Made by a program: the position numbers and the translations under genes. The notes under the pieces were generated by a model. The model had not been told where the DNA came from and did not search any database. It worked only from the letters and a program-made list of their open reading frames with translations. Source: Ectocarpus siliculosus (Eukaryota; Sar; Phaeophyceae; Ectocarpales; Ectocarpaceae). Taken from it: a stretch of 31,239 bases of DNA. The DNA is taken from contig FN649736.1 in NCBI GenBank assembly GCA_000310025.1, positions 1-31,239 of the forward strand, written 5' to 3'. Shown here in pieces: positions 3,258-26,035 of the stretch (positions within the stretch are counted from its first letter, which is position 1; every line of letters begins with the position of its first letter).

Positions 3258-3835
3258 GTTGTAGACCGGCCGCATCGTGCGCAACCTCTATGAGAGGGTA
3301 CGCATTGCAATACGCAACCTGCCCCCTACCGGCTTGTGCGCAACGCGCCAACCTGCAAGAGAGGGTACACCTTGCACTATTACCGGCAACCTGCCCCCCA
3401 ACCGGCTTGTGCGAAGAGCGCCAACCTGCAAAAAAGGGTACACCTTGCCATACCATAGGCAACCTCCCCCCTAACTGACTTGTGCATGGCGCGCCAACCT
3501 CCAGGAAAGGGTACACCTTGCGCTGCCATCGGCAGCCTGCCCGCTGTCCAGCTTGTAAGCAGTGCACCAACCACAAGAAATGGTACACCTTGCGCCGCCA
3601 TCGACAGCTTGACCCCAATCCGGCTTGTTAGCAGCGCACCAACCACCAAGAAAGGGTACACCTTGTACTACCATCGGCAACCTGCCTCCTATCCGGCTTG
3701 TAATAGCGCACCAACCACCAAGAAAGGGTAAACCTTGCACTACCATCGGCAACCTGCCCCCTATCCGGCTTGCAAACAACGCGCAACCTCCAAGAAAGGT
3801 ATACCTTGCACAACCTGGCCATCGTTGAATTGCAA
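3258..3835. repeat. 72-73-bp tandem repeat, about eight copies
   Basis: A diverged minisatellite. Each unit carries AACCTGCCCCCTA-like sequence, then CCGGCTTGT, then GCGCACCAACC, then AAGAAAGGGTACACCTTGC. The CGGCTTG core recurs near 3331, 3404, 3476, 3549, 3621, 3695 and 3767, giving a period of 72-74 bp. Copies differ by substitutions and 1-2-base indels. The near multiple-of-three period leaves long spurious open frames on both strands, rich in Trp, Gly, Cys and Arg on the minus strand. I do not read these as proteins. Confidence 0.9.
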
Positions 3836-5200: not shown

Positions 5201-6457
5201 ATGTTTTCCCATGTAAGCAATGCCTTCCCTTCAAGCTTCAGCGAGTTTTCCAAGAGCATCACGAACACGATCGCGAGCCAGCTAAATCTCTCGGGGAATA
5301 AGCGGGAGGTCCCCAACTACAAGGCGGACGGAGATGCGCACACTCCTCCTACCATTGACCCAGATGTGTTACTTTCATATTATGCGCACGCTGCCGAGCA
5401 CCGACCGTCGAGTCGCCTTCTGAAAGAGAGAGTGTTCGACAGAAGACTCAAAGGGCCTCGATCGGCGAATTTGCTTGTGTCGGGTTCGCCGATTTTCGAG
5501 AGGCCCTGGAGGTGCGTGGAGCGTGTGGGGGCACGGTGCCTCGTGTGTCGCACTGCGAAAGGGATGTGTACTACTGTATACATGCCGCGAAATCGATTGG
5601 GTAGATGCTGTTACACAGGTCATTTTTGGTTGTTGTCAGCTACTGCCTGTTGTTAGAAAAGGTGCTTCCAAGTGAGGCTGCAAAACCTAGCGTGACTTCA
5701 GGAGTCTATTGCTGAGCACAGCGAGCCGTCGGCCTCTCTACTTCCAGGTACTCTGCTCATTGCAAAGCTCAGAGGGAAGCTATGAAAACGGTGTGTGCCA
5801 AAGGATGCCCCCATGGGTTGGAAAATTGGCAAACTGATGACTCTCGTCACACATGTTGTATACTGCACCATCGCCGACCTTGTCGTCCAACTCGACTTGT
5901 AGGATACTGCTTTAGAGTCACCACGGCATCTTGCGCACTCTGTTTCAGGGCTCCTGAACGTGCTCCAGGACGCGGCAACAAGAGGAGATCCAGCTCAGCT
6001 CAAAGCTTCGGCGCCCCGTATCGACCAAAAACAGCCGCGAGTCTACAGAGTGGCAAAAACCTCCAGGATTCCAGCGGCAACCATCGGAGGAGTTCACACT
6101 CTCTCGGGGGCGTTTCCGGGGAAGAATGCGTACCCCTTTCTGCGGGAGGGCTGCAACAACGGGTGAAGAGAACCCAGAGGCACGAACAAGCAGGGGAAGG
6201 TTCCCAAGAGATCGCGGGATGGCGAAGCAGAGGCGTGCCCAAAGCTTCGACGCGGGCGAGAACAAGGTCCTCCTTAACGGCGACACCTCCCGAGGTATTG
6301 CCGCAAATCCCGCACGGCGACCCAACCCCAGTGCCGGCAGACGACCACGCCGAGCAGGGTGGACTGGGAGAAGGTGGCCTCGGGCACGAAGATTGTAGAA
6401 AAAGCGACGCTCCTGCTGCCGAAGAACCTACCGAGACGCTTTCGGAGAGGCCGTTGA
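5201..6457 (+). CDS. Five-exon gene, hypothetical protein (197 aa model)
   Basis: Proposed exons: 5201-5365, 5443-5511, 5702-5747, 5949-6162 and 6358-6457 (TGA stop). Coding length is 594 bases and every junction agrees in phase (0, 0, 1, 2). The donors are GTGTTA, GTGCGT, GTACTC and GTGAAG; all acceptors end CAG. Codons in exon 1 (frame around FSEFSKSITNTIASQLNLSG), exon 2 (IGEFACVGFADFREALE) and exon 4 (LLNVLQDAATRGDPAQLK) are coding-like. The product looks like a soluble, mostly helical protein with a basic C-terminus; I see no signal peptide, membrane segment or known motif. The 76-bp first intron is unusually short here, and the GTGTTA and GTACTC donors are weak. Alternatives: a different first exon at 5106-5212, or one frame spliced 5511 to 5949 and open to a CAG|GTAAAG donor at 7272. 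Function unknown. Confidence 0.4.
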
Positions 6458-7272
6458 CGGCTCCTTCCGCTGTAACCCTGTCGCCCGAGCGCGTCGGTCA
6501 ACGTGCCTTAGACTGTGATGTAGGAGTTGACGGGGTGGCCGACGAGGCCACCACCGAGCCGACAAGCGGCGAGACCTCGGCCGCTTCGCCTGGGTGGGGG
6601 CCTCGTCGATCGTCCAACGACGGTGATCGAAGAAGTACAAGCTCGACGAGAAAATCGATTCGATCAAGCGATGCCGACCGAAACGACGACAATGTCGGCC
6701 ACACGCGCCCGGAACAACACGCCAGAGACCGCATGACACGCCCACGCACCACCCCAGCAGTGGCAACGCCAGGAGTGGGGGCTTCGTTTCGCACATCAGA
6801 GACAATCCTCTTCGATGCCCAACCTGTTCCTCCATCGCTACTCAGTCGCAGGCCATCGACAACGGCACCGCCCTCCCGACGCCCTACCATCGAAACCGAC
6901 GCCGCCCTCTCGAGGTCCTCGCTGCTACCGCCGGCCTCCACCGCTTCGGCACCTTCGCTTCCGTTCGAACGTGGAAGCGCCATCTTGGGAAACTCGGTCG
7001 TCGGTGGAAGCGGCGACAGTCGAAGAGTGGGAGGATCAGACAATTGTGAATTTTCAACAGCCGGAAGAAGTGGTGAAGACTGGTTTTCCAGCTCCCTGTC
7101 TGGAGCCACCGGTGCCACGTGGACGAAACGGTGGCACCCTGGGGATAGTGGTGATCTCGATGTGGGGTCCGAGTCGGTTTACGGCGAGAGCAGCTGGCAG
7201 AACGAAGGGGCGGCGGCGGCGTGGACCAACAATGGTGCGGCTACTGGAGCGGGGTGGGGGGGAGAAGACCAG
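6458..7272. other. GC-rich region open in several frames
   Basis: The plus frame is open from 5782 to 7287, Ser/Thr/Arg/Gly-rich and low in complexity, and reaches a good donor (CAG|GTAAAG at 7272/7273). A minus-strand frame (7118-6498) is open as well. High GC and few stop codons in all frames make this openness weak evidence. It may be a disordered downstream exon of the 5.2-kb gene, or 3' flank. Confidence 0.2.
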
Positions 7273-8707
7273 GTAAAGATTGCATGAATGCTTCCATTGC
7301 GCGTTCCTCGACGGCAATGCGTCCGTTGCGCGTTCCTCGACGCTTCAACGCCGAGAAACCACAGCGAACCGTGAACATGCATGAATATAGCGTCATGTCG
7401 TTGTCAAGCACGGTTTCGTTTTATCGCCAAATTTCAGGCGACCTGCTTTAGGAGTCTCCACACCATACATACTATCGAAAACTGCGGTGTGTTAGCGCAA
7501 CCAAACACGTTCTAGTAGCATCATAGGATGCCACAGGGAACTTTGTTCGGGATTCTGGCCTGACCTTGTAGCTGGGCGGGGTTGGTTCGCCATTCTTCCG
7601 ACGATGTCGCGTTGTTGACTGTTTGAAGTCATGGAAGTGATTACGGGCGTATGCATGAGAGACCACCTGTGTTGCGCCATTCTTCATGTCGCTCGACAAT
7701 TCCCAGATGGACAGGGTGGCCGCAGCTCCGAAATCGGTAGCGGCGTTCGGCCGGAGGCAGCGCGGTATCTTGGCAGCCGGCGGCGGCGTCGACGAGGACA
7801 GACGGCCGGACACACGGGAGCGGTGCTATGACGCCCCGATTGAGGTCCTGAAGTCTTTCCATCCGTGCGTTCGTTGCTTCGATGCCCTCATGGGTCATCT
7901 CCGGGGTGCGTCCGTAAACGTAGTGTGATGCATCTTGTGCTACAATTGCCATCGAGGTGTGCCGCTAGTCGTTGGGGCAGATCTTCTTTTGCGGGTGTTT
8001 GAACCTGTATATCTTCGGTTTGGCAGTCACTGGTTGTTCTTGAGCCGTTTTCACTCTTCGCGTACGCTGTCAACGACCGGCATTCACACAAACCGCCACC
8101 CGCTTCGCAAGGTACGAAATGTGAAATCTGCTTTAATACTCACTCGGTACTCAGGCATTCAGTCCAATACATTCGCTGTATGGTCCTCCTGGGGCACTGC
8201 AACAATAGCAAGCACGTTCTATCATGACAGGCAGTTATGTCTGAGACAATCCATCACAACAGTTACCTTCGGAACCTGCGAGCGGTTCCCTGCCACGACG
8301 TTGTCCAGGAAACCTACGCCAAGGGCAACCCGAACTCGTCCGCAATAGCGGTTGGTGGAAGGCTGATCTACGCGGTTATCGTGACTTACTGGCGGTTTTG
8401 GTGCTTCTGTTGTTCTTTCGTCAATCCCACCGAACCGAACCGAACGGCAGACGGCACGGGGGCAGAAGAGCTCAGGAGGAGAACTTCGAGCGGCTCCACC
8501 GTGGCGGCGGGAGATCCTCATGTCGCCTTCTTCGTCAGGTGAGTCCATGACTCCTGCTGCCGCCTGCCGCAATTATGTTATTGTCGTTGACGTTGCCGTC
8601 GCCGTGTTGGCGCTCCTCGTCGCCCCGCGCTCAAAGCGGGAAAGCCATGAAGAGGAGGGAACGAGTGAATCAGTGAATCAGTGAATCAGTCGAGGCCCAC
8701 GCATGGA
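7273..8707. other. Stretch without a resolved gene
   Basis: A 16-17-bp direct repeat (TTGCGCGTTCCTCGACG) occurs twice near 7297 and 7331. At 7641-7952 both strands are open with plausible residue mixes: plus ends GASVNVV at a TGA at 7926-7928, and minus contains GRTPEMTHEGIEATNARM. I could not decide between them or extend either by splicing. Near 8665 there are three tandem copies of GTGAATCA. Confidence 0.3.
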
Positions 8708-9301: not shown

Positions 9302-9369
9302 ATTGGATGGAGCGCTGTATATTGCCGCCCCAGTGAATGAGTGAATGGTTGAAGCAGCTGAAGGCCATG
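9302..9369. repeat. Dispersed direct repeat, copy 2
   Basis: Matches 8708-8779: TTGGATGGAGCGCTGTA ... CCCCAGTGAATGAG ... GCTGAAGGCCATG. It begins eight bases after the AAC microsatellite. A partial third copy follows at about 9375-9412. Confidence 0.6.
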
Positions 9370-9412
9370 TGTCGACGGGATGGAGTGCTTGCAGTACCTT
9401 GCTCCCCCCATC

Positions 9413-10721
9413 GTGCCCATTGCCGTCGTCACCTGGAAGGTGGGAGACCATGGATAGGGGACTCGGGCGCTTCACCCCCAGGGGGTTCATGGGCAGTTTT
9501 ACTCCGAGTCCGTTTCGACCAGCGCTGGCAGAGTACGCCGTCAAGGCAGCGACAGAAGACCCAAAGTTTTGGGGCCTAGGTTGGGCGCGGATTCCGGACA
9601 CGAGGTGAACATGTCTCTGCCTTCTCCGGCCGTAAACACGTCCACCTTTTGAAGTGCGTGCATTTGTTTGACGGTCTTGGTTTCTACAAGGGGTGAGGAC
9701 TGATTGCAGCAAGTCGTGAACTTGTGGCTTATGTCCGGACTGCAAGTGTTTACTTTCCGGGCCAACAACCACGACAGATGCAAAGGAACCCCAATGAATC
9801 CCTCCCTATGGTTACTCACATCTCGCAACGGCATTGATTGGTAGAACAGCTCTGCAGCAACAGTGTGATCAGCGCCAAGGTTCAAGGACTCGGGGCATCA
9901 TGGTTGGCATGCCATCTGCATGACGGAACTTAATGTTGTGGAGCCTCCAGACGCAGCAGAACTCCGTCTATGGAGCCTGGGTCGATGCAAAGGCTGGATG
10001 CCCCTCTCCCGTCTACCACGCCCATTGATTGGCATCCCGAGCTGGAACAGTCCCAACTTCATTCGTTCATTGAAATCGAGTTGTCATTTTCATGTCCACA
10101 CCGCTTTGTACCGTTTACTCAACCTTCTTCCGTGCTTCGATAATCTCGGTGAAATTCTACGCGCGGTGTTTCTTGGCGCCTCTTAAACTGGATGCAGGTG
10201 CAGGGTAATCGTCGTCAAGAGCCTCGAAGCGATGCAGGTAAAAGAGAAAAGTAGTGAAACCCGCCGCCTAGCTTCGGAAAGAAATAGGGAGGTAGCCAAC
10301 GACTACGATTGGCGCTTTGCCAGTAGAAAAAACGTACCCATCCCCCTTCTCTATCCAATGTCGCCGTGCTATCGATGACAACGATCGGCAAACGAGAGAG
10401 AGAGAGAGAGAGCGGCAGAGATAGACAGACCGACGGGCAGACACGCGGACAGATCTTGCGCACGACTATAGGTGATTCATTTTCTTCGAGTTCCAGCCTT
10501 GCACCTCGTTGAACGAATCCTTCTTGCTTGCTACTAAGGACTGAACGCACAGCTACCTTGTCGTACGGCCCGTTCAGCACGAGAGGGACTGGCTTTCGAA
10601 CCGACACGGGTTGATCCTGTCGTTCAAGGACGGTGCCGGACGACACTGCCAGGTGATAATTGCTACAGTACAGCTACTGTAGCAACACCAAGAGACCCAC
10701 CACTCGCTGTAGTGGATTGTG
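9413..10721. other. Stretch with no firm gene; short (GA)n
   Basis: A (GA)n run lies at about 10394-10412. On the minus strand, about 10450 to 10668, an open frame follows a TGTAG acceptor and contains VPLVLNGPYDKVAVRSVL and RLELEENESPIVVRK. It is exon-like, but I could not join it to a start, a stop or another exon. A plus ORF at 9920-10186 (88 codons) has no supporting signal. Confidence 0.3.
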
Positions 10722-11126
10722 ATGGCGTTCCTTGACACCCTCCTCCCTCGCTGTCCCACACTCACACCCCTCCGCAAAATCCCGTGTTCTTTTGACGGAC
10801 TGCTGCAGTCTACACTGTTTCCAGAGACCATCCGTAAGGCAGGCTGGAACAAGGAGCGAGCTATCGAGGCAATATACCAGAAGGCCGGCTACTGGAGAAC
10901 TCGTAAGAAGCGGTCGGAGAATCCCAGCAAGCCTTTGGTGGCCACCCCTACCCCATCGGAGAGGAAAAGCCACATGTTCCCGACGCCTACCGTAGTTGTA
11001 GCTGATCCTGCCAGCGGTGACGACCCGGTTGTTTCGCGCACAGCTGTGATGCTACGGTTTGAAACGGTTTCCTTTCGCATGGGTTTCGGAAAGTATATCG
11101 CGAAGAAAAGGCTGAAAGGGGGGTAA
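10722..11126 (+). CDS. Hypothetical ORF, 134 aa
   Basis: The ATG at 10722 opens a frame to a TAA at 11124-11126. The central part, LFPETIRKAGWNKERAIEAI followed by YQKAGYWRTRKKR, looks like folded, basic, helical protein; the C-terminal half is Pro/Ser-rich and then basic. A CTGCAG just before the central segment could be a splice acceptor, so this may be an internal exon rather than an intronless gene. It starts about 55 bp from a minus-strand exon-like frame, which could make a divergent pair. The helical basic segment recalls DNA-binding parts of transposases, but no catalytic motif is visible. Function unknown. Confidence 0.3.
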   Translation: MAFLDTLLPRCPTLTPLRKIPCSFDGLLQSTLFPETIRKAGWNKERAIEAIYQKAGYWRTRKKRSENPSKPLVATPTPSERKSHMFPTPTVVVADPASGDDPVVSRTAVMLRFETVSFRMGFGKYIAKKRLKGG

Positions 11127-13770: not shown

Positions 13771-16700
13771 CTAAGGCTTCCCCTCGAAAAACGGAAGCAT
13801 AATCGCGTCGGTGTCGTTATCACCATCCTGCCCGAAGCCGTTCAAGACGTCCTCCCCCAGAAGCTCGTCGAACGCATCAAGGAGGCCAGCGTCATCCGTG
13901 CCGTCGAGCTCCGAGGCAACCAACAGCTCGAGCCCAGCGATCACTTCTTCTCCTCGACCGGCAGCACCAGCACCCGCTCCAGCACCACCGGCAGCCGCAG
14001 CAACGTTACCTTGGGCCAGTTGCAATGGGACACACCCCTTCCTCTGTACATGCTCCTCTTTCACGCGATTCGCCGGCGCCCCCGGTGACGTCACCTCTCC
14101 CCCAAACACCGCGGCCGCCACCATTGGTGGTTGTTCCGCTGCTGGCGCTGGTGCTGGTGCTGCTACGCCGCCAGTACCGACTTCGACGGGTCCGGTGATG
14201 CCGCTGCTGCTGCTGCTGCCGCTGCCGCTGTAGCTGGCGTCAATCGACACCGCAGATGATGTCGCTCCCGGCCCACAGCAGGGCGAGCAAGACCTAGCCC
14301 CGAGATTCCCGCCCGCTTGTTGCCGTTGTGTCTCAATATCACCACCAAACGCTCCCACAAACCCCGTCGCGGCCGCCGCCGGCGCCGCCACCCTGGGCTC
14401 TTCAACAGGGGGTTCCGCAGCAGGGAAACTGGGTATACCCCCCTGCCGCTCGCTGTGCAAGACACCACGGGCCCAAGGTTCGTCCGAGATAGAAGACACG
14501 GGCATCGGTGAACGGCTTACGTGGGGGGGGGGCGGCTTCGACTCGTCCCCGATTGAGGAGGTGAAGGCTGTGTCCACGGACTCCGCCAGGGTATCCTTTT
14601 CTCGCTGTGGGAGCACGATGGTCATGAAGAAACAGTACAGAGACCTGCAGGGTTGACGGGAGGGGAGGGGGGGGGGGGGGACAACGACCAAACATTTTCG
14701 GCGGAGAATCAGCGCAAGAGCGCAAACAAAAGATATTTCTTATGCTGGATTGTTATGAACTCGACTCTGCCATCCTTGTTCCTGCACTTGTGTAGTTGTT
14801 TGCAATGTACAGCCGACGAGAACGCTGCTCTCAAGCCTCGCGCATGTAACGCCAGCAGGCCGTGCAGATGCATATGTAGTTCCGAGCTAAGCGCAGCCGA
14901 CCAGTCCGATGCAACCGTCCTACGCATGGAACGGGTGGACCGCGGGTCCACGCCACACTTGGCCCGCAGAACAAGTTTCTTACAAGTCTCTCGCTCGCCA
15001 AAAAAAAAACTACTCAGCTGCGAACCAACGTCCGGACGTAGGCGCTCGCTGAAAACGGTTTCCATATAGCCACTCGCACGCAGAAACGTTTTCCATTAGC
15101 CACCACCTCTCTCTTTCCATGAGCCAGTTACCTACCTGCAGAACACGTGCTTGCAGATGCACTCCATGCCTGTCCACTCCTCCGCAGGCGGGACCCTTAC
15201 GGCGCTAGGTTCGTCCATCACGGAGTTGTACGCTTGCCGCAGGCTCTCGTACTTTTCGTGGCGGCCGGACAGCAGCAGGCACGCGAGGGTGCAGTGGGCC
15301 AAGTGCGTCCTGGGGATCGACGAGCCGGAGAGGAAAGGAGGAGAAGCAAGGAGGTAAGATACACAGAAAAGAAGAGAGTCGAGCCTGTGCATATGAAGGG
15401 GAGGTATGTATGTATCATTGCTGTATGTTGCCCTGACATTGACAGAAACGTACGTCGGTCATACGACACCCATGAACTGATATGAGAAGAAAGACCGCAG
15501 GGATCCTTGTACTTTTAACAGCGTGCACCGTCGTAGTGACGGCCGTACCGTAGATGATGCAATGCAGACGGGGGCAGGGGGGGGGGCTGCATGCCTTAGC
15601 GGTTAGGCCATTGACCACGCGTCCACGAGAGGACGGAGCTTTGTGGGGGGAGGGGGGGATGGGCCATGATATGACCACCAGAGTTGGAGCTGAGCTCAGG
15701 CAGAAGGGTGGATTTTTTATGGGTACGATCCTTGCCATGGAAAATGTTAGGGTAGCGCGGTGTACGTAATATACCACCCTCCCTTGGAGCGGATTTCAAA
15801 GCTCGACTACCGCACGGCAGCAGAGGTGGCGGTGCCGACAGCAGAAGTGGCGGTGTCGACAACGGCAGCAGAAGTGGCGGTGCCGACAACGTCTTTCCGA
15901 AAACGTGTCGTTTGACCCACACTTCCTGCTCAGCGTGGAGTAACGGGCCTTTTAAGGTCGGTCAGTCAGGGGGTGTGGTATCTTACGACATGTGACCGAC
16001 GGCAGACGGCGGGCGGCGCGTATTGCCCTCCGGCAGCGTCAAGCCCACCCGGTATCCAAACGAAGGGCAAGAATCGAGCTCTAATTTTCTGAGTTTGTCC
16101 TAAGACGAAAAAAAGCCTCTGGATGTCCTGGCTTTGAATGAAGAGTTATCGAAAATCAGTGTATTTTTTCTCACCTTCAGGAAAACAACACCCAACAGTC
16201 AAAACACTTTTTTCTCGGCCAAAAGAGTAGATCGATTTTTGGAACATCATCAACACACGACCAAAGAAGCCCTTCGATTTTGCGTCTGGAAGTTAAGCAG
16301 GGGTTGCGCGGCCGCCAGGTTTTCTTTCCTGTTGTTTTGGCAGACGCAAGCTCTCCGAACCACTGCTGCAGACGCTCCTAATCACTAGCCCGCATCTCCC
16401 GCCCCTCCTATCCTCCTCTACTCTCCGAGTATTCCACTCACCACGCAGTCAGGCGGCAAATCCCGGGGCTAGTCAAGAAGATGTCCGCGCAGCGCCACAG
16501 GCCATCCATAGCCCACGATTGCCGCCCCTGCAGCACGTTGGCGTAGGCCATGATGCTGTGGAAGTAGAGCTCGCCAACGCCTCCCTTCACCTCGGGCCTG
16601 TTCTCCCCGGGAGACACGATGCGTCACGGAGGCGTATTTGGTCGAAAGTTGGGTCGAATTTTGTGTTAAGTTAATCTTACAGAAGTAGATGGGGCGCTAT

Positions 16701-19700
16701 CGGGTTGAAAACGAGCCTTGGGGCACTCGGGAGTGAGAGATGTCGTAGGTTCTAAGCGCACGGAAGGGAGAAGGAGAAAAAAACTCAAGTGTTGCCCTAA
16801 AAAACTTGCGAAGAGAGCGGCACTTGGGCAAAAAATGCAGTCCGAGCACGAAAAAACAAAGAAACAATAAAAAATATTTATGCCTCCTCGAAACTCTTGG
16901 CTAAGCGCTTGCATTGACCTAGCTAGCGTTGACTCCAACGCAACAAAGCAACAACCCAAGAAAATACGTCTCTCATCCCTCAAAGTCATGGGGGGCAACA
17001 AGACAAGGACATCGTTTGGTATCGTGGGGCGAATAGGCTATTGTGAGCGCCCATACAAACAGCCCTGTTGGCGTGTGAAGACTGCAAAAAAAAACAGTCG
17101 TACTCACGTCTGTGTGGCATGAACCATCAGGTCGCACTCCGGCAGCAACTCCGCCGCGAACTTGAGGCTCATCTCTCCCGGCGGAGGGGGCTCCGTGGAC
17201 TGATCGAAGCTTCTGAGGCTGAAGCAGGTAGGGGTATTAGCGGCGCCCGCGCCCGTCACGGGCGAAGACCCTCCCTTCCCCTCATCGTAAACCACGTGCG
17301 GCTGCGCGGACAGACCCGGGTTGCGTGTCGCGCCGACATCTTGGGGTCCTCCTCCGTCTTCGCCCGGAGGAGACCCGTCCCCTTCCCAACGGGCGTACCT
17401 TCCGACGTCGCTGCTGTCTTCGTTGAACGCCCCCTTGTCCAGCATGTCCACCGAGAAGCAAGCGGTGAGGCGGATGTCCGCCTTGAGCAGCCAGCGGCAC
17501 AAGTCCTTCTGATGGATGAGCCTCGGCTCCTGCCCATGTTGAGTTAGGGTTAGGGTTAGGGTTAGGGTTAGGGTTAGGGTTAGGGTTAGCCCAACATAGC
17601 GTCGACCCGCACGGAACCCGAACAAGGGTTGAGGCATGATAACAATAGCGCAACTGCTGTAACAAGAAGAAAAATTCGCCAGTGCTGTACTGTAAACTGT
17701 AGCGGGAAGTGCCCATAATGTTGACCTCCCTCAAAGCGGGAGGTGGCCAGAATGTTGGTGGCTTAAAGCGTGAAGTGTTCCTAACGTTGTTATCCTCAGA
17801 GCAGGAAGTGTAGCTAATGTTGGTGTATTAAGAAAAGCGTGGAGGAATGCCCTTAACGATGGTGTATTTACAGCGGGAGGTGCCCTTTTACCGTAGATGA
17901 CATGACGCAAGACACCACACACCCCCGACCGATTCTCAGAGCTCATCTACTGTAAACAGCAACAGCGGCGGTGCAGACAGTGGCAGCGTTGGAACCCGTC
18001 ACGTCGAGAGCTTTCCGAAAACGTGTCGCATCATTGCAAGTTGGCATCCTCTTTATCGTGGAGTGATCGAGCTTTGATAATCGGTGGAAGGCGTGTGGTA
18101 TCTTGTGTCACCTACGGTATGTTGGCTTCCAAAAGGAATAGGGATAAGGCGACTGCAGTGCCTTCTGTGGTCGGTTGCCCAGGCAAAGATTGCCGTTTTT
18201 GCAATACGCAACGGCAGGTGGTCCCTTTGCAAGACCGGTCGCCCTGAAAAAAGGCCAGCGAAATCACGTGACACACAGAGAGACGGAACATCAACGTGTC
18301 TCATACTCTTCACTAGTGCCCGGTGTGCGGTACTAAGGCCAGCCATATCCCTTGGCACTACTCGGCCTTACACGGGGACCACTCTAATACTTGGGGTTGT
18401 TGCTGTGCCTCGGACGTTGTGCAGGATTCGAGAGTCCGGTTGCCACAAATACTGCTCTGCCTCGGGCAAATCGCGCAGGTTTCGAGAGTCCCGTCACTAC
18501 TTCTACTGCTGTACCTTGGACGTCATGCAGGATTCGAGAGTCCCGTTGTTACAACTACTGCTGTGCCTCGGACATCGTGCAGGATTCGAGTCCGCCTGCC
18601 ATTAATACTGCTCTGCCATGGGCAAATCGCGCAGGTTTCGAGAGTCCCGTCACTACTACTACTGCTGCACCGTGGACATCTTGCAGGATCCGAGAGTCCC
18701 GTCACCTCTACTGCTGCTGCACCGTGGACATCTTGCAGGATTCGAGAGTCCCGTCACTACTACAGCACTACTGCTGTACCTTAGCCATCGCGCAGGATTC
18801 GAGGGTCCCACTGGCAGCCTTGATATACTCCTCGTCGACCTGGTGGCTGTACCCCTCCAGCATGTCGCAGGCCTTGACGAACAGGTGCGTATCCAGGAGG
18901 TCCGCCGGGACCTTTTCCGGGGGCAGAGCGTTGATGATCGACTTGGCGAAGTCGATGTACTTGATGAACTTGTCCTGCGGGCGGAGGGCAGGTTGCGTTT
19001 CGTGCCACACCGCCGTGTCGCCACCAGCGTGTAAACAAAAAGAAAAAAAAATCGGGACGGTGTTGGCGAACGGGGGTCCCGTAGGGTGTATAAGGTACAC
19101 ACACAAACCCTGGATCGATACATTGTAAAGCTGGAACAACCCAAGACCACGAAGCGAGAGTGAAAAACTCGAATGACCGGAAAGCTTTTTCTCGACGAGA
19201 TGGTTCTCCTGCCGCCGTCACTTTCGGCAAAGCAGTCACTGCTGTTAGAGTAGTGCTGCAGGTAACCCGGGGTTCGAACATAGGCGTACGGAATCTCATC
19301 GAGCCACGGCCAGTAATACGCTCTTAGCGCCGCTTCACTAGGGCACAACGGCAAACGCGGGAAAGCTAGCCGATCCCAGAAGAAGTGGACGGACACGCGA
19401 GACCACGGCCACGGCTTGCTCCAATCACCGAAGACCTCGAGGGGACAAAAGAAAAGGCGCCACACAAAAAAAAAACGCCTTCCTGTTGCCTGTGCGACCG
19501 CACCTCGTTGCCCATGAAGTCTTGAAAGAGCGCCATCGCCGTGAATGCCCTGTGAGGGTCGGGAGAGGCACAGGAGAAGGCGAATCAACGAATTCGTTGC
19601 GAAAACAAGCACAAACAACAAGGATCGGGAGGCGTGTATGGATTTGAGTGCGTTGAGTCAATAGGGCAACCAGCAACGAGAGCGGGAGATACACAAACAC

Positions 19701-22700
19701 AGCGACGAGAGCGGGAGATGCACAAACACAGCAACGAGAGCGGGAGATACACAAACACAGCAACGAGAGCGGGAGATGCACAAACACAGGAACGAGAGCG
19801 GGAGATACACAAACACAGCAACGAGAGCGGGAGATACACGTTGACACGGCACCCACAACAAGGATCAGGAGAGTTGCAGGAGAAGGCGGCGACTACGTCA
19901 TGTACACACACCACCCCAACAGGATGAGGAGGGGTGCACGAGACTGCGCTGCCAAAACACGCCGCCAGCACCATGGATAAGGAGAGAGTACGCCACAATC
20001 ATGACGCCATCGCCTCACCTAGCCGTCTCCGCGGTACCATCGTCGAAGCAGACTGACAGCGCCTCCCGAGCAAGGTGGACGTATCCCTCCACCTGCAAGC
20101 AGGGGGGGGGGCCGAAGAATGGTACAGTTAAGGGAGGGGTTCAAGGAGTGCCCCCAAGGGCGGACGACTATTCCCCTCCCGTGGCATGTTTTTCTTGCCC
20201 TCTTCGGAGCCTGTTCTTTTTTCATTGCAGGACCTCAAATCGGGGAGCCCTCTCATGACCAAGGTGCCTTTTAAGCAAACAAAAGGAGCGGCGGTCTGGA
20301 AGCAGTTGCGTTTTCCTCTTCTTCGATGCGAAAGGGGGGGATTCCACCCATGACGAGATGGTACTTCGGCAGCAAAGAAATGTCACTGCTGTCACTGCGA
20401 AGACCAGTAAATTCTCGCGTCTATCGGTTGCCCAACGGTCCTACATCTCCGTAGACATAAACACCAAACAACGTCCGAGCACACGCCTCACACAAACACT
20501 GACCCCCGTCCACTGCACGCCTTGACACCCACCCACCCACCCCGTCCTTCCAGACAACCCTGCCGCCAACAAGCTCACCGAGGACTTGGGCCGCCCTCGA
20601 ATCAAGCACCCCACCCCGACAGTACTCCACAGCACGCACGCCGCCGCCGCGTTCTCGACGGCACTCTCTGCCCGTACCAGGCCGCCACCACCACCACCAC
20701 CTGGCACCAGTGCGCTTTCTCCCCACCCGTGGCCGCCGCCAACAACGCCTCCTGCTTCAGGCCCTGGGAACTCCGGGTCGCGCTCCTGCATGGTGCGGAA
20801 CATGGTGCTCACCATGGCCTTACGGATGAAGCTGTGCGGAAGGGGAGACGGAGAATGGGGGGGGGGGGGGGGGGGGCTCAATTGTTTTACACATGAATCG
20901 CTACATGGGTCCGCTTCGGAGGATGCGCCTCGAAAGCCACGCCGTAAGGATGACCCTCGACACAGGCATGGTTGGGGTCGACTCGACGAGACACCTGCAC
21001 GTCCAACGCCACCCACGGTAGTGGCCGGGTCTCGTAAGTAGTGGCGATGGGGTTCGGCAGAGGAATTCTATACCGGACACCCATTTGGCCCTCCCTACTC
21101 AAGAGTGTAGCATGACACGACTTGGGCATGCCACGTGTGTTACGCGATTTACACCGGCCTTGCACACGGCGACCGGCCTACAGCAGTATCTTACACAGGG
21201 ACCAACCACCGTTATACCGTAGGTTACGTAAGATATATTGTTTTACCCCGTGGACCCATCTTCAACGCTCGATTACTCGGTAGAAAGAGCAGTAGCGGTG
21301 CCAAAAATGGAGGCGTTGGAATCGTCTCGTCGAGAGCTTTCCGACACGCTTAAGTATTTGAATTTCGCATACTCTTCATCGTGGATGAATTGCGCTTTGA
21401 AAATCGGTCCAGGGGTGTGTGGAATCTTACGTCATGTAGCCTACGGTACAGGGACCACCTACTGCACCTACTACGGAAACGGGACACGCCTGACCGTCAA
21501 CCGGTCCTCTTCGTCCCCTGACGCTGACCGTTTCGTATTCTACAGCTGATTTCTCATCTCCAACTCTTCCGGTTTCTCTTGTCATCGCGGCAACTCTACA
21601 CTATTACTACAGGGGGAAAAAAATGAAAGGATGGAAAGAAAACAAATCGCGAGATCACACGCACCTCTCGCTTGTGATGGGCAAGAAGCCCATGGTCTGG
21701 AAGAAGTCGCCGATGTACGCGTTCTCCTTCAACCCGATCAGTCCCGTAGCCGGCGAGGGGCTGAGGCGAGCCCTGCCGTTGCATCCAAGCACAAAAAAAA
21801 ACACGGCACGCCACCATTCGGCATACATGCACACCGTCCAACCATCAGACACCGTCGACATGGTAAACCGTGCAGGCTGTGCCAAGGAGAACCGTTTGGT
21901 CTTCTTTATCGGCATCAAGACTTCAATACACAGTCGTTTTTTTTGCCCCCTCACTGACACAAACCCCCCTTCGGCTGCGGTGGCCTTGCCTCGAACGGGG
22001 AGTCTTTTCTGTGACTGCATATTTCCTCAAAAAAAAAAAGTCCAGTATCTAGCAGAGGGGCTCCTCCGCCCTCACTGCTACAAAGACGGCAACGCATCCC
22101 TCTTGAATGGGTTGTTATCTCGAACGAACATCTGCTCATTCTTTGATGTTACGGAGTTGGAAAGTGTTTTCTTATTTCTGATGAAAGGTCCGATCCTATC
22201 ATCCTTATCATCGTCCGCGTCCACATTTTCCAGGAACTGGTTCGCCACTTTCTCGCCTGCTCTTCTCCTCGAGAAAACAGCCCGTGTGTCGAGGATGGCC
22301 CAAAATAGTCACAATCACCCCGGGCGCAAAAAAAGAACAGCACAGCTATGACCCAAAGAGCAAACAAACAGCAGCACTTCCCCCGAAAAACCGGCTGATG
22401 GCACCTGCGCCCAAGTGAATCCCAAATCTGACTCAAGAACAAAGCGAGTTAGGCATACAGAAGCCGAAATCAAACCATTAGACTAGTCAGCGCTGACTAG
22501 TCTCATGGTTTGATTTCGGCTTCTACAGGCAGTAGCAACAAACCCGACACACGCATTTGTCCGAGCTCTCACCGCTTTAGAGGTATCATGGCCGTGGACA
22601 CCATCCCGCCGCCGGCGTGCCCCCCCCACCCCTCCGATACCGGTGTCCTGGCCGCGGTGCCCCCCATTCCGCCCGGAAAACCCGCACCGTATCCGTTTCC

Positions 22701-25641
22701 GTTGTAGCCGCTGCCGGTGCATTCTTCGCTGCGTGCTGGTTTGGACGAACGACCGCTGTTGGTGCTGACTGCCGCTGGTCGCGGTCCCGTCAAGAGCCTC
22801 AGGCTGTAGTGGCACTCCGGCTGATTCTTGGCGATACAGAAGCTGTTTTCGATAAAAAAATAACAACAGTATAGCGCAGGGGGGAGGGGGGGAGGGGGAT
22901 GGATGCGAGGCCAGGGGGTTGGTATGTGGTTCGCTAAATAGGGCGTTACAGACGTGAAAACAAGTCGCCAGAGGAGCAAAGACTACCTGTAACTACCTGT
23001 ACCTCGAAGAACACGGGAGGTGTGTGTGCAGAGTGCACAAGCGTGAGTGTAGTGCACAGCAGTCTACGGGAGCAGGAGAGACGTGTCGGCTTTCTCGAGT
23101 GTCGCAGTCAGTGCGCGATAAAAAAGCGATGTGGTCGAGCGCCTCCTTCAGAAGTCCCCGTCGCCGCGCGTGGTACGTGCTGCACACACGCCCCCGTCAC
23201 AAAAAAAAAACGGGGCAACGCGGAACGCGCACCATATATGTAGCTCGCATAAGGTACCACAACCCCTCGACCGATTGGTACAGCGCGACTAATTACTCCA
23301 CGACCAACATGAACGCCAAAATCGAACACTTTGGATTGCCCCAGACCAAGTGGTTCTAAAGACACCGTTTTCGGTACCATCGCCGCTCTATTGCTGCAGC
23401 GCATCGGGCTTTGAAAACCGGCCCACGGGGCGTGATATCTTACGCAATGCAACCTACGGTACCAGCTACTGCCGTTGCCACTCATGACCGAGCTTCCAAG
23501 CGTAAGCACTTCCAACCGCTGTCATTGCCGGGGGCGATGATTCTCGCAAAGCGCGCGAGAGAGACAGAGAGAGTCGTCGGAAAGCAAAATAGGCAATGCA
23601 TCGCATGTCTCGTGGGCACTTCACAAAGCAGATCACATGGCATCACAACAGGACGGGGTGTACAGTGTGTTGAGGGGAACGAGGGTTACACATGGGAGTG
23701 AGTGCAGCGGTGTTGCTTACATCGCTGGCAACAAGAAACGCACATACACCCACACGCCCACCACCACGTCATGCCCTTTTTACTCCAGCCTCTTTTCCCA
23801 CCACGTGGAAGAAGCAGAGAGGGAAATAGACATTCGCCCCAAGCTCTCACCGTGCAAACGACAAAAGCACCAAAGTAGACCTACCTACCCTTGTCAGCTA
23901 GAATCTAGCAGCACACCCAACACCCATATTTCACTCATTCTCAACAGGGGACACTGCACGCAAACACGGCCTAAATACGCCGCGCATGCGGCCTATTCCA
24001 ATACGAAGTGTACCTCAAGCCCTCATCTCCTACCCCTCCAACGTCGACGCACAGCAATCAGATCGCCACCACAAGCTCCCTTATTACGCCTGATACCCAC
24101 ACAGGGGGGGGGGGCGCCGTATGCTGCACAGGGATCAGTAGAAACACACACGGCCTGTATGTAACACCGTGTGTGAAGCCCATCGCGAGACTACCGTAAG
24201 GACGCGAGAGATTGCGTGCCCCCCCCCCAGACCGACTTTCAAAGTCCGATTGCTCCACAGACAAATGGGTTCGGACGAGAGCCCGATACGTCATCGGAAA
24301 GCGCTTCGCGAGACGTTTCTAAAACCACCAATCTTGGTGTTTGCGCCAAGCTTGCTTGTGGAGCAATCGAGCTTTGATTATCGGTCGATGGGGCAGGGGC
24401 GCAATCTTTCGCATCCTTTCGGTGCCTTTGCACGAACGAGGTGCGTAGACGCAAGATCAAATTCGACTACATTTAATTTTCAAAAATACAACGGAAGTAA
24501 CAAGTTGCACCATGGTGTTCTTCCGACCACTCGCAACGCGTGCACGTGATGTGGTCATCGTTGGTCAGAGGAGGCTTTTGAGCGTCGAAGGGGAATCAAT
24601 CGCGATCCAACTCTGATAGGGGGGAGGTGAGAGAGAGACACCGAGCGCCCCAAGGCTGCATGCACATGCGCTGTGCGCTGCCAGCCAATCACGTGTCAAC
24701 ACACAAGCCTCTTGAAAATGAAGTACTTATATGACTTGCGTGCTGCCTCCAAAGCGCGAACCCTTGGAAGGTGCTATGCATACTATATACTTGGAAATGG
24801 TCAAGTAGTCTCCCTTGCGACACCGGTGTGAAGGCATCTGTTCCGTTCGTTGCCACGCTTTCGTATGCGACAACGTGACAACACAAGCAAGCCTGGTCAC
24901 GATACGCCTGTGTGAAACGGAACGAAACGAGTCTAAAATAGATACAAGCTACACAATTTTCTCTAGGCCACAGCACCTCTTTTGTGATGTACTTCTTCAA
25001 ACTCTGGCACACGAGAACCTGAGCTGTCCGTCTCCTGATACTTCGTCGTACAACATGTCTCGGGCCTGCCTACGCTTGCTTCGACGCATAGCGACAAGTA
25101 TCTCGAAAATAGGGTGCCGTGGATGATCCGCCATGGGGAAGAGACAGCAGTCACAGGACTGTTCCACAGAAAGGTCCAGGTCACACATGCTTTTAGGCAA
25201 GTAGATCTTGTGATCACACACACACAAGATATGGTAGGCAGCCAACGGTCCCTCACGAGAGCCTCTATCCACCGCGCTCGATAGGGGCACTCATGTTGTT
25301 CCCCGCACAGAACCCGCGGCTCTTCCGACGGCACACTTGTGGTCCACGCAACTTCACTTTCCTTGACAGCACAAACCTGGCAAAAGTATTCGTTCAAATC
25401 AAGACGATGCCGCCGCCCTTCACCTGCAGCGGTCAGCCCCATACCGAGTCTGCACCAGGGAAGGATCACCGTCGCACTTCCGTTTCCGCCGAGTGCAGAA
25501 GTCGCACGACCCCCGAAGACGTTTGGTGAACTTTCTGGCATGATGGCTGTGTGCCTCATCATCATCATGCGGGGTCTTGGCGTGCGGGGGCGGTCGAGTT
25601 TCCCCGCCGGCGGCGGGGATATTTTGCGCGCACGCAAGCAT
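13771..25641 (-). CDS. Zn2Cys6 (fungal-type) transcription factor, 10 exons
   Basis: Exons on the minus strand: 25641-25424, 22842-22573, 21772-21665, 20831-20640, 19549-19504, 18974-18780, 17529-17108, 16597-16442, 15309-15136, 14644-13771 (TAG stop). Together they give 2655 coding bases, 884 residues, and all nine junctions agree in phase with GT..AG introns. Exon 1 has CDFCTRRKRKCDG (Cys46, 49, 56); Cys72, 75 and 83 follow, the last two in exon 2 (FCIAKNQPECHYS). This is the C-x2-C-x6-C...C-x2-C-x7-C pattern of a two-zinc binuclear cluster that contacts DNA. Residues about 165-610 are helix-rich (GDFFQTMGFLP, FIKYIDFAKSIINALP, YANVLQGRQSWAMDGLWRCA) and resemble the middle homology region of such factors. 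After a Gly/Ala/Ser-rich linker, residues 841-884 are acidic-hydrophobic (LLDAFDELLGEDVLNGF), like an activation domain. A nuclear role is inferred. The start is uncertain: the frame stays open to an ATG at 25797, but that adds a (CAGA)n-encoded stretch. Targets unknown. Confidence 0.85.
15750..16002. mobile_element. TIR element copy E (intron 8)
   Basis: A non-autonomous inverted-repeat element. The left end contains GTACGTAATATACCACCC and then GATTTCAAAGCTCGA; the right end contains GGGTGTGGTATCTTACGAC, roughly its reverse complement. The core has TCTTTCCGAAAACGTGTCG, shared with copy A. It also carries three internal copies of a CAGCAGAAGTGGCGGTGCCGACA-type unit (about 15818-15891), which explains its greater length. 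The ends are diverged, so the boundaries are approximate. It lies wholly inside an intron of the zinc-cluster gene and has no coding capacity. Confidence 0.6.
17530..17589. repeat. Interstitial telomere-type (TTAGGG)n at a 3' splice site
   Basis: Seven perfect TTAGGG units plus a partial one (17544-17589 on the plus strand). On the coding (minus) strand this is (CCCTAA)n ending 14 bases before the CAG acceptor of exon 7. CCCTAAC contains CTAAC, the usual branch-site motif, so the array supplies repeated candidate branch points and pyrimidines for intron 6. It is too short and internal to be a chromosome end. A trace CCCTAACCCTAAC also occurs near 29971. Confidence 0.9.
17702..17890. repeat. 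34-bp minisatellite, about six diverged copies
   Basis: Units begin GCGGGAGGTG or GCGGGAAGTG, followed by CC.(A/T)AATGTTG(G/A)TG and then an AT-rich end. Starts fall near 17702, 17736, 17768, 17801, 17836 and 17873, a spacing of 32-37 bp. It lies in intron 6 of the zinc-cluster gene, and its last unit abuts TIR element copy A. Confidence 0.75.
17891..18117. mobile_element. TIR element copy A (intron 6)
   Basis: About 227 bp. The left end, CCGTAGATGACATGACGCAA, and the right end, TTGTGTCACCTACGG, are inverted repeats extending about 50 bp inward (CACCACACACCCCCGACCG versus CGGTGGAAGGCGTGTGGTA). TA flanks both ends, consistent with a TA target duplication. The core contains GTCGAGAGCTTTCCGAAAAC. 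There is no ORF of its own. The size, TIRs and TA flanks suit a MITE mobilised by a Tc1/mariner- or PIF-like transposase elsewhere. Confidence 0.75.
18385..18812. repeat. 50-57-bp minisatellite overlapping an exon end
   Basis: Eight units containing GGATTCGAGAGTCCCGT on the plus strand, starting near 18424, 18480, 18533, 18583, 18635, 18687, 18739 and 18796. The last unit is the 3' end of exon 6 of the zinc-cluster gene: GACCCTCGAATCCTGC on the coding strand, followed by the donor AAG|GTACAG. The array therefore grew from, or into, the exon-intron boundary, and most units carry a splice-donor-like site at the same position. Confidence 0.85.
19671..19842. repeat. 29-bp minisatellite, six copies
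   Basis: The unit AGCAACGAGAGCGGGAGATACACAAACAC (a 29-bp period) is repeated six times with a few substitutions (C/A in CGACGAG, T(A/G)CACA, AG(C/G)AAC). It is well conserved, which suggests recent expansion. It lies inside intron 4 of the zinc-cluster gene. Confidence 0.9.
21217..21446. mobile_element. TIR element copy B (intron 3)
   Basis: About 230 bp, with ends CCGTAGGTTACGTAAGAT and ATCTTACGTCATGTAGCCTACGG flanked by TA on both sides; the terminal bases are nearly perfect inverted repeats. The core, TCGTCGAGAGCTTTCCGACA, matches copy A, and CTCTTCATCGTGGA...GCTTTGAAAATCGGT matches the right arms of A, C and D. No coding capacity. Confidence 0.75.
22459..22524. repeat. 66-bp near-perfect loopless palindrome (intron 2)
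   Basis: Two 33-base arms, AGAAGCCGAAATCAAACC... and its reverse complement, meet at GTCAGC/GCTGAC with no spacer and a single mismatch (ATT versus CAT opposite). It begins 48 bases inside intron 2 from the exon 2 donor. It could form a cruciform in DNA or a long hairpin in the pre-mRNA. It does not match the TIR element family. Confidence 0.92.
23237..23459. mobile_element. TIR element copy C (intron 1)
   Basis: The right arm, GCTTTGAAAACCGGCCCACG then ATCTTACGCAATGCAACC and TACGG, closely matches copies A and B. The left arm (TGTAGCTCGCATAAGGTACC then CCCCTCGACCGATT) is more diverged, so the left boundary is approximate. It lies in the 2.6-kb intron that splits the zinc cluster. No ORF of its own. 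Confidence 0.6.
24194..24422. mobile_element. TIR element copy D (intron 1)
   Basis: About 229 bp. The left end, CCGTAAGGACGCGAGAGATT, and the right end, AATCTTTCGCATCCTTTCGG, are inverted repeats. The inner inverted arms, GACCGACTTTCAAAGTCCGA with TTGCTCCAC and GTGGAGCAATCGAGCTTTGA, extend the pairing. TA precedes the left end. Its terminal sequence differs from A-C, so it is a subfamily. Confidence 0.65.
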
Positions 25642-26035
25642 TTCTTTTCCCGCTTCCTCGCCAACGCCCACCTCTTCGCCGATACCCGGAGCTGTTGGTG
25701 GGCGAGGTCGTCGCACTCTAACGCAGGATCTCTCTGTCTGTCTGTCTGTCTGTCTGTCTCTGCACTTTACTGATGATGCATCACAACAACACAACATTCA
25801 TCACAAATTTTTCAGTATATTTGTGCTTGCCAAGGGGCTTCGTGAAAGGATAAACCGTTATATACAGGTACCCATGTTATCTTCGCATTGTGTGCGTCTC
25901 CCCCGTGCTGGAGGTGAAGTGCACAGGGCAGAGGGAGAACAGCAGCGACTGAGGCAGGGGCAACAGCACAGACGAACCCCTCTCCCCTAGCTCGCTCATC
26001 TCCGAAGCCTCGGGGGGAAGAGGTGAAGGCGAACC
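25642..26035. promoter_or_regulatory. Divergent intergenic region, likely bidirectional promoter
   Basis: These 394 bp separate the start of the zinc-cluster gene (minus) from the start of the phosphatase-subunit-like gene (plus). It holds a (TCTG)n microsatellite at about 25733-25759 and TATATA at about 25859-25864, which would suit the plus gene if its start site is close by. Promoter activity is inferred from geometry only. If the minus gene starts at the in-frame ATG at 25797, the gap shrinks to about 238 bp. Confidence 0.5.

Follow-up and report, generated by a model that had tools for sequence, protein, structure and literature searches.

A zinc-cluster domain divided by an intron in a probable transcription factor gene from a brown-alga-like genome

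Introduction

Zn2Cys6 zinc clusters bind two zinc ions and recognize a CGG-type DNA target. Among solved structures, the best zinc-cluster match to the gene described here is the ethanol regulon activator (PDB 1f4s, 1f5e, 2alc, and 3alc), which we take to be AlcR of Aspergillus nidulans. Only the cluster is aligned, and on its own the match lacks significance (E = 0.74 for the domain, 2.8 for 418 residues). Yeast GAL4 (PDB 1d66 and 1aw6; E = 1.7 and 2.3) has in common with our protein the basic CxxCxxxxxxC stretch and the order of the cysteines, but its aligned loop between the third and fourth cysteines is nine residues shorter.

Genes of this family, also called fungal TRFs, are reported from several algal groups. 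Published counts of fungal TRF (Zn-clus) genes cover Tisochrysis, Pavlova, Emiliania, Nannochloropsis, and Phaeodactylum (PMC4827209). For Ectocarpus, two copper-induced Zn_clus genes have been described (PMC4108028), and two fungal TRFs are named as being among the transcription factors with the highest expression in gametes (PMC3879662). The Ectocarpus siliculosus genes named in these reports (Esi0071_0075, Esi0071_0081, Esi0008_0230, and Esi0348_0008; PMC4108028, PMC3879662) carry the same family name as ours. Interruption of the domain by introns also has a described case: in Trichoderma Xlr2, introns lie inside the zinc cluster, and the domain was missed in published gene models (PMC11121469). 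Loss of the zinc-cluster domain during gene prediction is reported to be frequent in fungi (PMC10141177).

Here, we analyzed a stretch of 31,239 nucleotides (the window) and present a complete model of a gene that probably encodes an algal zinc-cluster factor. The locus is most likely a nuclear gene of a brown-alga-like stramenopile that codes for a zinc-cluster (Zn2Cys6, fungal TRF) transcription factor, with the two parts of the cluster united when intron 1 is spliced out. As in Xlr2, the cluster is intron interrupted; in Xlr2 the inclusion of a 20-nt microexon is regulated, whereas a single long intron is found here. The original prediction had proposed that such a copy is informative about how widely the family is distributed. 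Because the family is already in print for Ectocarpus, the diatom Phaeodactylum, Nannochloropsis, and haptophytes, this proposal is not sustained and the range is not extended: the gene adds one more ordinary member, with an intron running through its DNA-binding domain, to a family already known.

Results

Two predicted exons encode a Zn2Cys6 zinc cluster

On the minus strand, joining positions 25641 to 25424 (exon 1) to positions 22842 to 22573 (exon 2) yields the pattern C-X2-C-X6-C-X15-C-X2-C-X7-C. Cys46, Cys49, Cys56, and Cys72 come from exon 1 and Cys75 and Cys83 from exon 2; these coordinates, the division of the cysteines, and the predicted splice sites (donor AG|GTGAAG, acceptor AAAACAG) were all reproduced from the original prediction. 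The spacings of 2, 6, 15, 2, and 7 residues fit the Zn-clus range C-X2-C-X6-C-X5-16-C-X2-C-X6-8-C as given in PMC4827209. The basic residues expected of a Zn2Cys6 zinc cluster between the second and third cysteines are present as TRRKRK, and residues 36 to 100 are basic overall (15 K/R versus 5 D/E). The loop of 15 residues between Cys3 and Cys4 is unusual. It lies outside the range of 5 to 12 reported for yeast, and its precedents are one Pleurotus member with X15 (PMC7295025) and the ethanol regulon activator, with 16 residues in the aligned chain compared to 15 here.

The match to the Pfam Zn_clus profile (PF00172; gathering score, 21 bits) is real but modest. The joined 163-aa piece scored 22.3 bits, over the cut-off, as did a 94-aa spliced piece (23.1 bits, acceptor 22842) and the full-length 909-aa model (21.2 bits, 0.2 bits over the cut-off), so that the profile check proposed for the spliced product returned a match in the range of 21.2 to 23.1 bits. 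The bulk of the score derives from exon 1, with exon 2 contributing ∼3 bits; in Pfam, exon 2 by itself gave no Zn_clus match, and exon 1 by itself reached 19.4 bits (E = 0.0012). The expectation that single-frame searches would miss the domain thus holds at the Pfam cut-off but not more generally, given the E value that exon 1 alone attains. With E values of 8e-5 to 3e-4, the spliced domain would probably also be missed at the cut-off of E < 1e-5 stated for a survey of brown-algal factors (PMC6418280). With its first exon by itself scoring below the Pfam cut-off, the locus shows how intron-split zinc-cluster genes can drop below annotation thresholds.

An 11-exon gene model extends to position 13771

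The interval originally proposed, 22573 to 25641, stands as two exons of the gene but not as its extent: position 22573 is an internal GT donor (CG|GTGAGA) rather than the gene end. Our model bears out the prediction of a multi-intron gene: its 11 exons span 11,871 bp of the minus strand, encode 909 residues, and finish with a stop codon whose last base is at 13771. All ten introns are GT-AG with phases in register, and the 909 codons contain no internal stop. Because exon boundaries were set by hand with the frame in view, this agreement in phase is not independent support. Codon usage does provide independent support for exons 2 to 11. When each exon was left out of training in turn and all six frames were compared, the modelled frame scored highest in 10 of the 11 exons.

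Exon 1 (25424 to 25641) encodes the N terminus, the basic CxxCxxxxxxC stretch, and the fourth cysteine; a second in-frame ATG, also a candidate start, lies at 25797, 156 bases upstream. Exon 2 (22573 to 22842) carries Cys75, Cys83, and a Gly/Ser-rich linker. The modelled frame gave the best codon score in exons 3 (21665 to 21772), 4 (20579 to 20831, with a Gly-rich stretch), 5 (20019 to 20092), 8 (17108 to 17529), 9 (16442 to 16597), and 10 (15136 to 15309), and likewise in the 46 bases of exon 6 (19504 to 19549), where its lead was 0.02 bits per codon (0.40 versus 0.38 in the next-best frame). Exon 7 (18840 to 18974) has the least certain boundary, with a weak donor (GTCGAC) beyond which the coding-like score continues. 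Exon 11 (13771 to 14644) encodes a low-complexity region and the acidic-hydrophobic C terminus and contains the stop codon. All exons lie on the minus strand. Window GC was ∼54% (mean of 31 windows), and the ten introns average 914 bp. These figures resemble those published for three brown-algal species (54 to 56% GC, 7 to 10 introns per gene, and mean intron lengths of 530 to 740 bp; PMC6418280), in agreement with the algal or stramenopile look noted in the original prediction.

Exon 1 is the exception: codon bias is absent from its modelled frame (score of −0.06 bits per codon, versus −0.01 and 0.00 in two other frames). The case for it therefore comes from the zinc-cluster match, an uninterrupted frame, and a GC content of 62% (exon range, 56 to 68%), which is above the 53% of introns. 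This lack of bias, the marginal Zn_clus score of the full-length model, and the repeats in several introns would fit a decaying or nonfunctional gene copy that begins with what is left of a zinc cluster. However, 909 codons remain open across 11 exons with GT-AG sites, ten of those exons have codon bias in the modelled frame, and all six cysteines are kept; we consider decay unlikely.

Intron 1 separates zinc ligands 4 and 5

As predicted, the Zn2Cys6 domain is cut between its fourth and fifth ligands, and it exceeds the profile cut-off once joined. The intervening intron 1 (22843 to 25423, minus strand; GT-AG, phase 2) measures 2,581 bp and is the longest of the model's ten. Read-through meets a stop immediately at the donor (AGG TGA). 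In the account of Xlr2, two of the six cysteines sit on the microexon, which is spliced in depending on glucose (PMC11121469). By analogy, retention or alternative splicing of intron 1 could act as a regulatory switch, dropping half of the cluster to leave a form that does not bind DNA. The length of intron 1 is well above the brown-algal means, yet length alone shows no role, and both the donor (AG|GTGAAG at 25424) and the acceptor (AAAACAG|C at 22842) look ordinary. We judge such a switch very unlikely, and its more specific version, in which the device of Xlr2 would have arisen separately in an algal protein with a non-MHD middle region, a shade less likely still. Most likely, intron 1 is an ordinary, rather long intron with no role of its own.

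Acceptor choice was examined among the 325 AG dinucleotides located 50 to 6000 nt downstream of the donor. Three keep the exact cysteine spacing, of which only 22842 scores above the Zn_clus cut-off; it opens 91 residues ahead of a stop and is in phase with exon 3 onward. Acceptor 22404, also considered, gives the wrong cysteine spacing. In a scan of both strands of the window for joins (GTRA...YAG introns of 60 to 5000 nt, the six-cysteine pattern, and at least three K/R between Cys2 and Cys3), two joins were detected, both starting from this exon 1; in a chance control, any join at all appeared in 1 of 200 dinucleotide shuffles. It is highly improbable that exon 1 is part of another gene or splices to a different acceptor, with exons 2 to 11 encoding a protein that has no zinc cluster: acceptors 21189 and 20498 also keep the spacing, but their joins fall under the cut-off (10.3 bits for a 102-aa piece and 17.2 bits for a 91-aa piece) and stop after 30 and 19 residues, while the 22842 join runs on in phase.

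The protein beyond the zinc cluster

Four features can be read directly from the sequence: the cysteine pattern, the profile match, an acidic-hydrophobic C terminus, and a reading frame that stays open with its phases in agreement. In the last 60 residues, there are 17 D/E, 1 K/R, and 20 large hydrophobic residues (LIVMFWY). With this acidic, hydrophobic end and a basic N-terminal region, the protein appears to have the layout of a zinc-cluster activator, in which DNA binding would lie at the front and activation at the back.

The fungal middle homology domain that marks Zn2Cys6-MHD factors was not detected behind the cluster at the sequence level in Pfam. The original prediction had suggested a search with the Fungal_trans profile, and no match to it appeared at E up to 10; over the 909 residues, Zn_clus was the only Pfam family returned at that setting, in a search that drops most matches above ∼0.1. 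For pieces of the middle region, Pfam gave no match to 206 aa and the PDB gave no sequence match among solved structures to 343 aa. Since the middle has neither a Pfam family nor a solved-structure match, sequence comparison does not reveal the usual fungal middle homology domain there. The first 650 residues had no match in NCBIfam. Searches of two further collections, both the wrong kind for an algal gene, confirmed no relative: in viral contigs, 6 stretches fit a pattern derived from the 206-aa middle piece (0 confirmed), and in prokaryote genome contigs, 22 stretches fit one from a 329-aa piece (0 confirmed), both queries being taken from outside the zinc cluster.

Several weak candidates were set aside. 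PDB entry 7akd, whose E value of 0.68 was better than the 2.8 of the zinc-cluster match, aligns partly through a Gly-rich stretch with the tail of a construct, and a piece from exons 10 and 11 scored well under the cut-offs for NepR (13.6 bits versus 25.7) and Asp4 (13.3 bits versus 27.7).

Taking these features together, the zinc-cluster factor that we favor might work as follows. Splicing of intron 1 would bring the two halves of the cluster together, and its six cysteines could then coordinate a pair of zinc ions. The basic residues TRRKRK may read a CGG-type half-site, the role that such a stretch has in GAL4. The middle region may be regulatory, and the acidic tail could recruit the transcription machinery.

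Other features of the window

Nothing in the window reached Rfam gathering scores. On the plus strand, positions 5782 to 7287 hold a low-complexity open frame of 501 residues, with a moderate coding-like score at 6301 to 7272 and no Pfam match. Pieces of an AMMECR1-like gene occur in order at 9345 to 9605 and 10713 to 11123 (both plus strand), covering positions 43 to 78 and 119 to 153 of the Pfam AMMECR1 profile with 18.2 and 16.2 bits (cut-off, 25). Positions 7674 to 7910, which gave no Pfam match, presumably resemble the front end of the same gene.

Several repeats were observed, most of them in introns of the zinc-cluster gene. Three MITE-like stretches of ∼235 bp are found at 17884 to 18120 (intron 7), 21214 to 21453 (intron 3), and 24193 to 24423 (intron 1); those in introns 7 and 3 are related to each other for the greater part of their length, and all three have a 41-base segment in common at 76 to 80% identity. 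Intron 2 contains a palindrome at 22459 to 22524, ∼50 bases after exon 2, with two 33-base arms that are 97% complementary and adjoin with no spacer. Minisatellites are present at 3314 to 3815 (73-bp unit), at 19671 to 19839 (29-bp unit), and at 18401 to 18809 (52-bp unit), the last starting ∼30 bases behind exon 7. In intron 7, a perfect telomere-type repeat of 7.8 copies of GTTAGG spans 17543 to 17589 and ends 13 bases upstream of exon 8.
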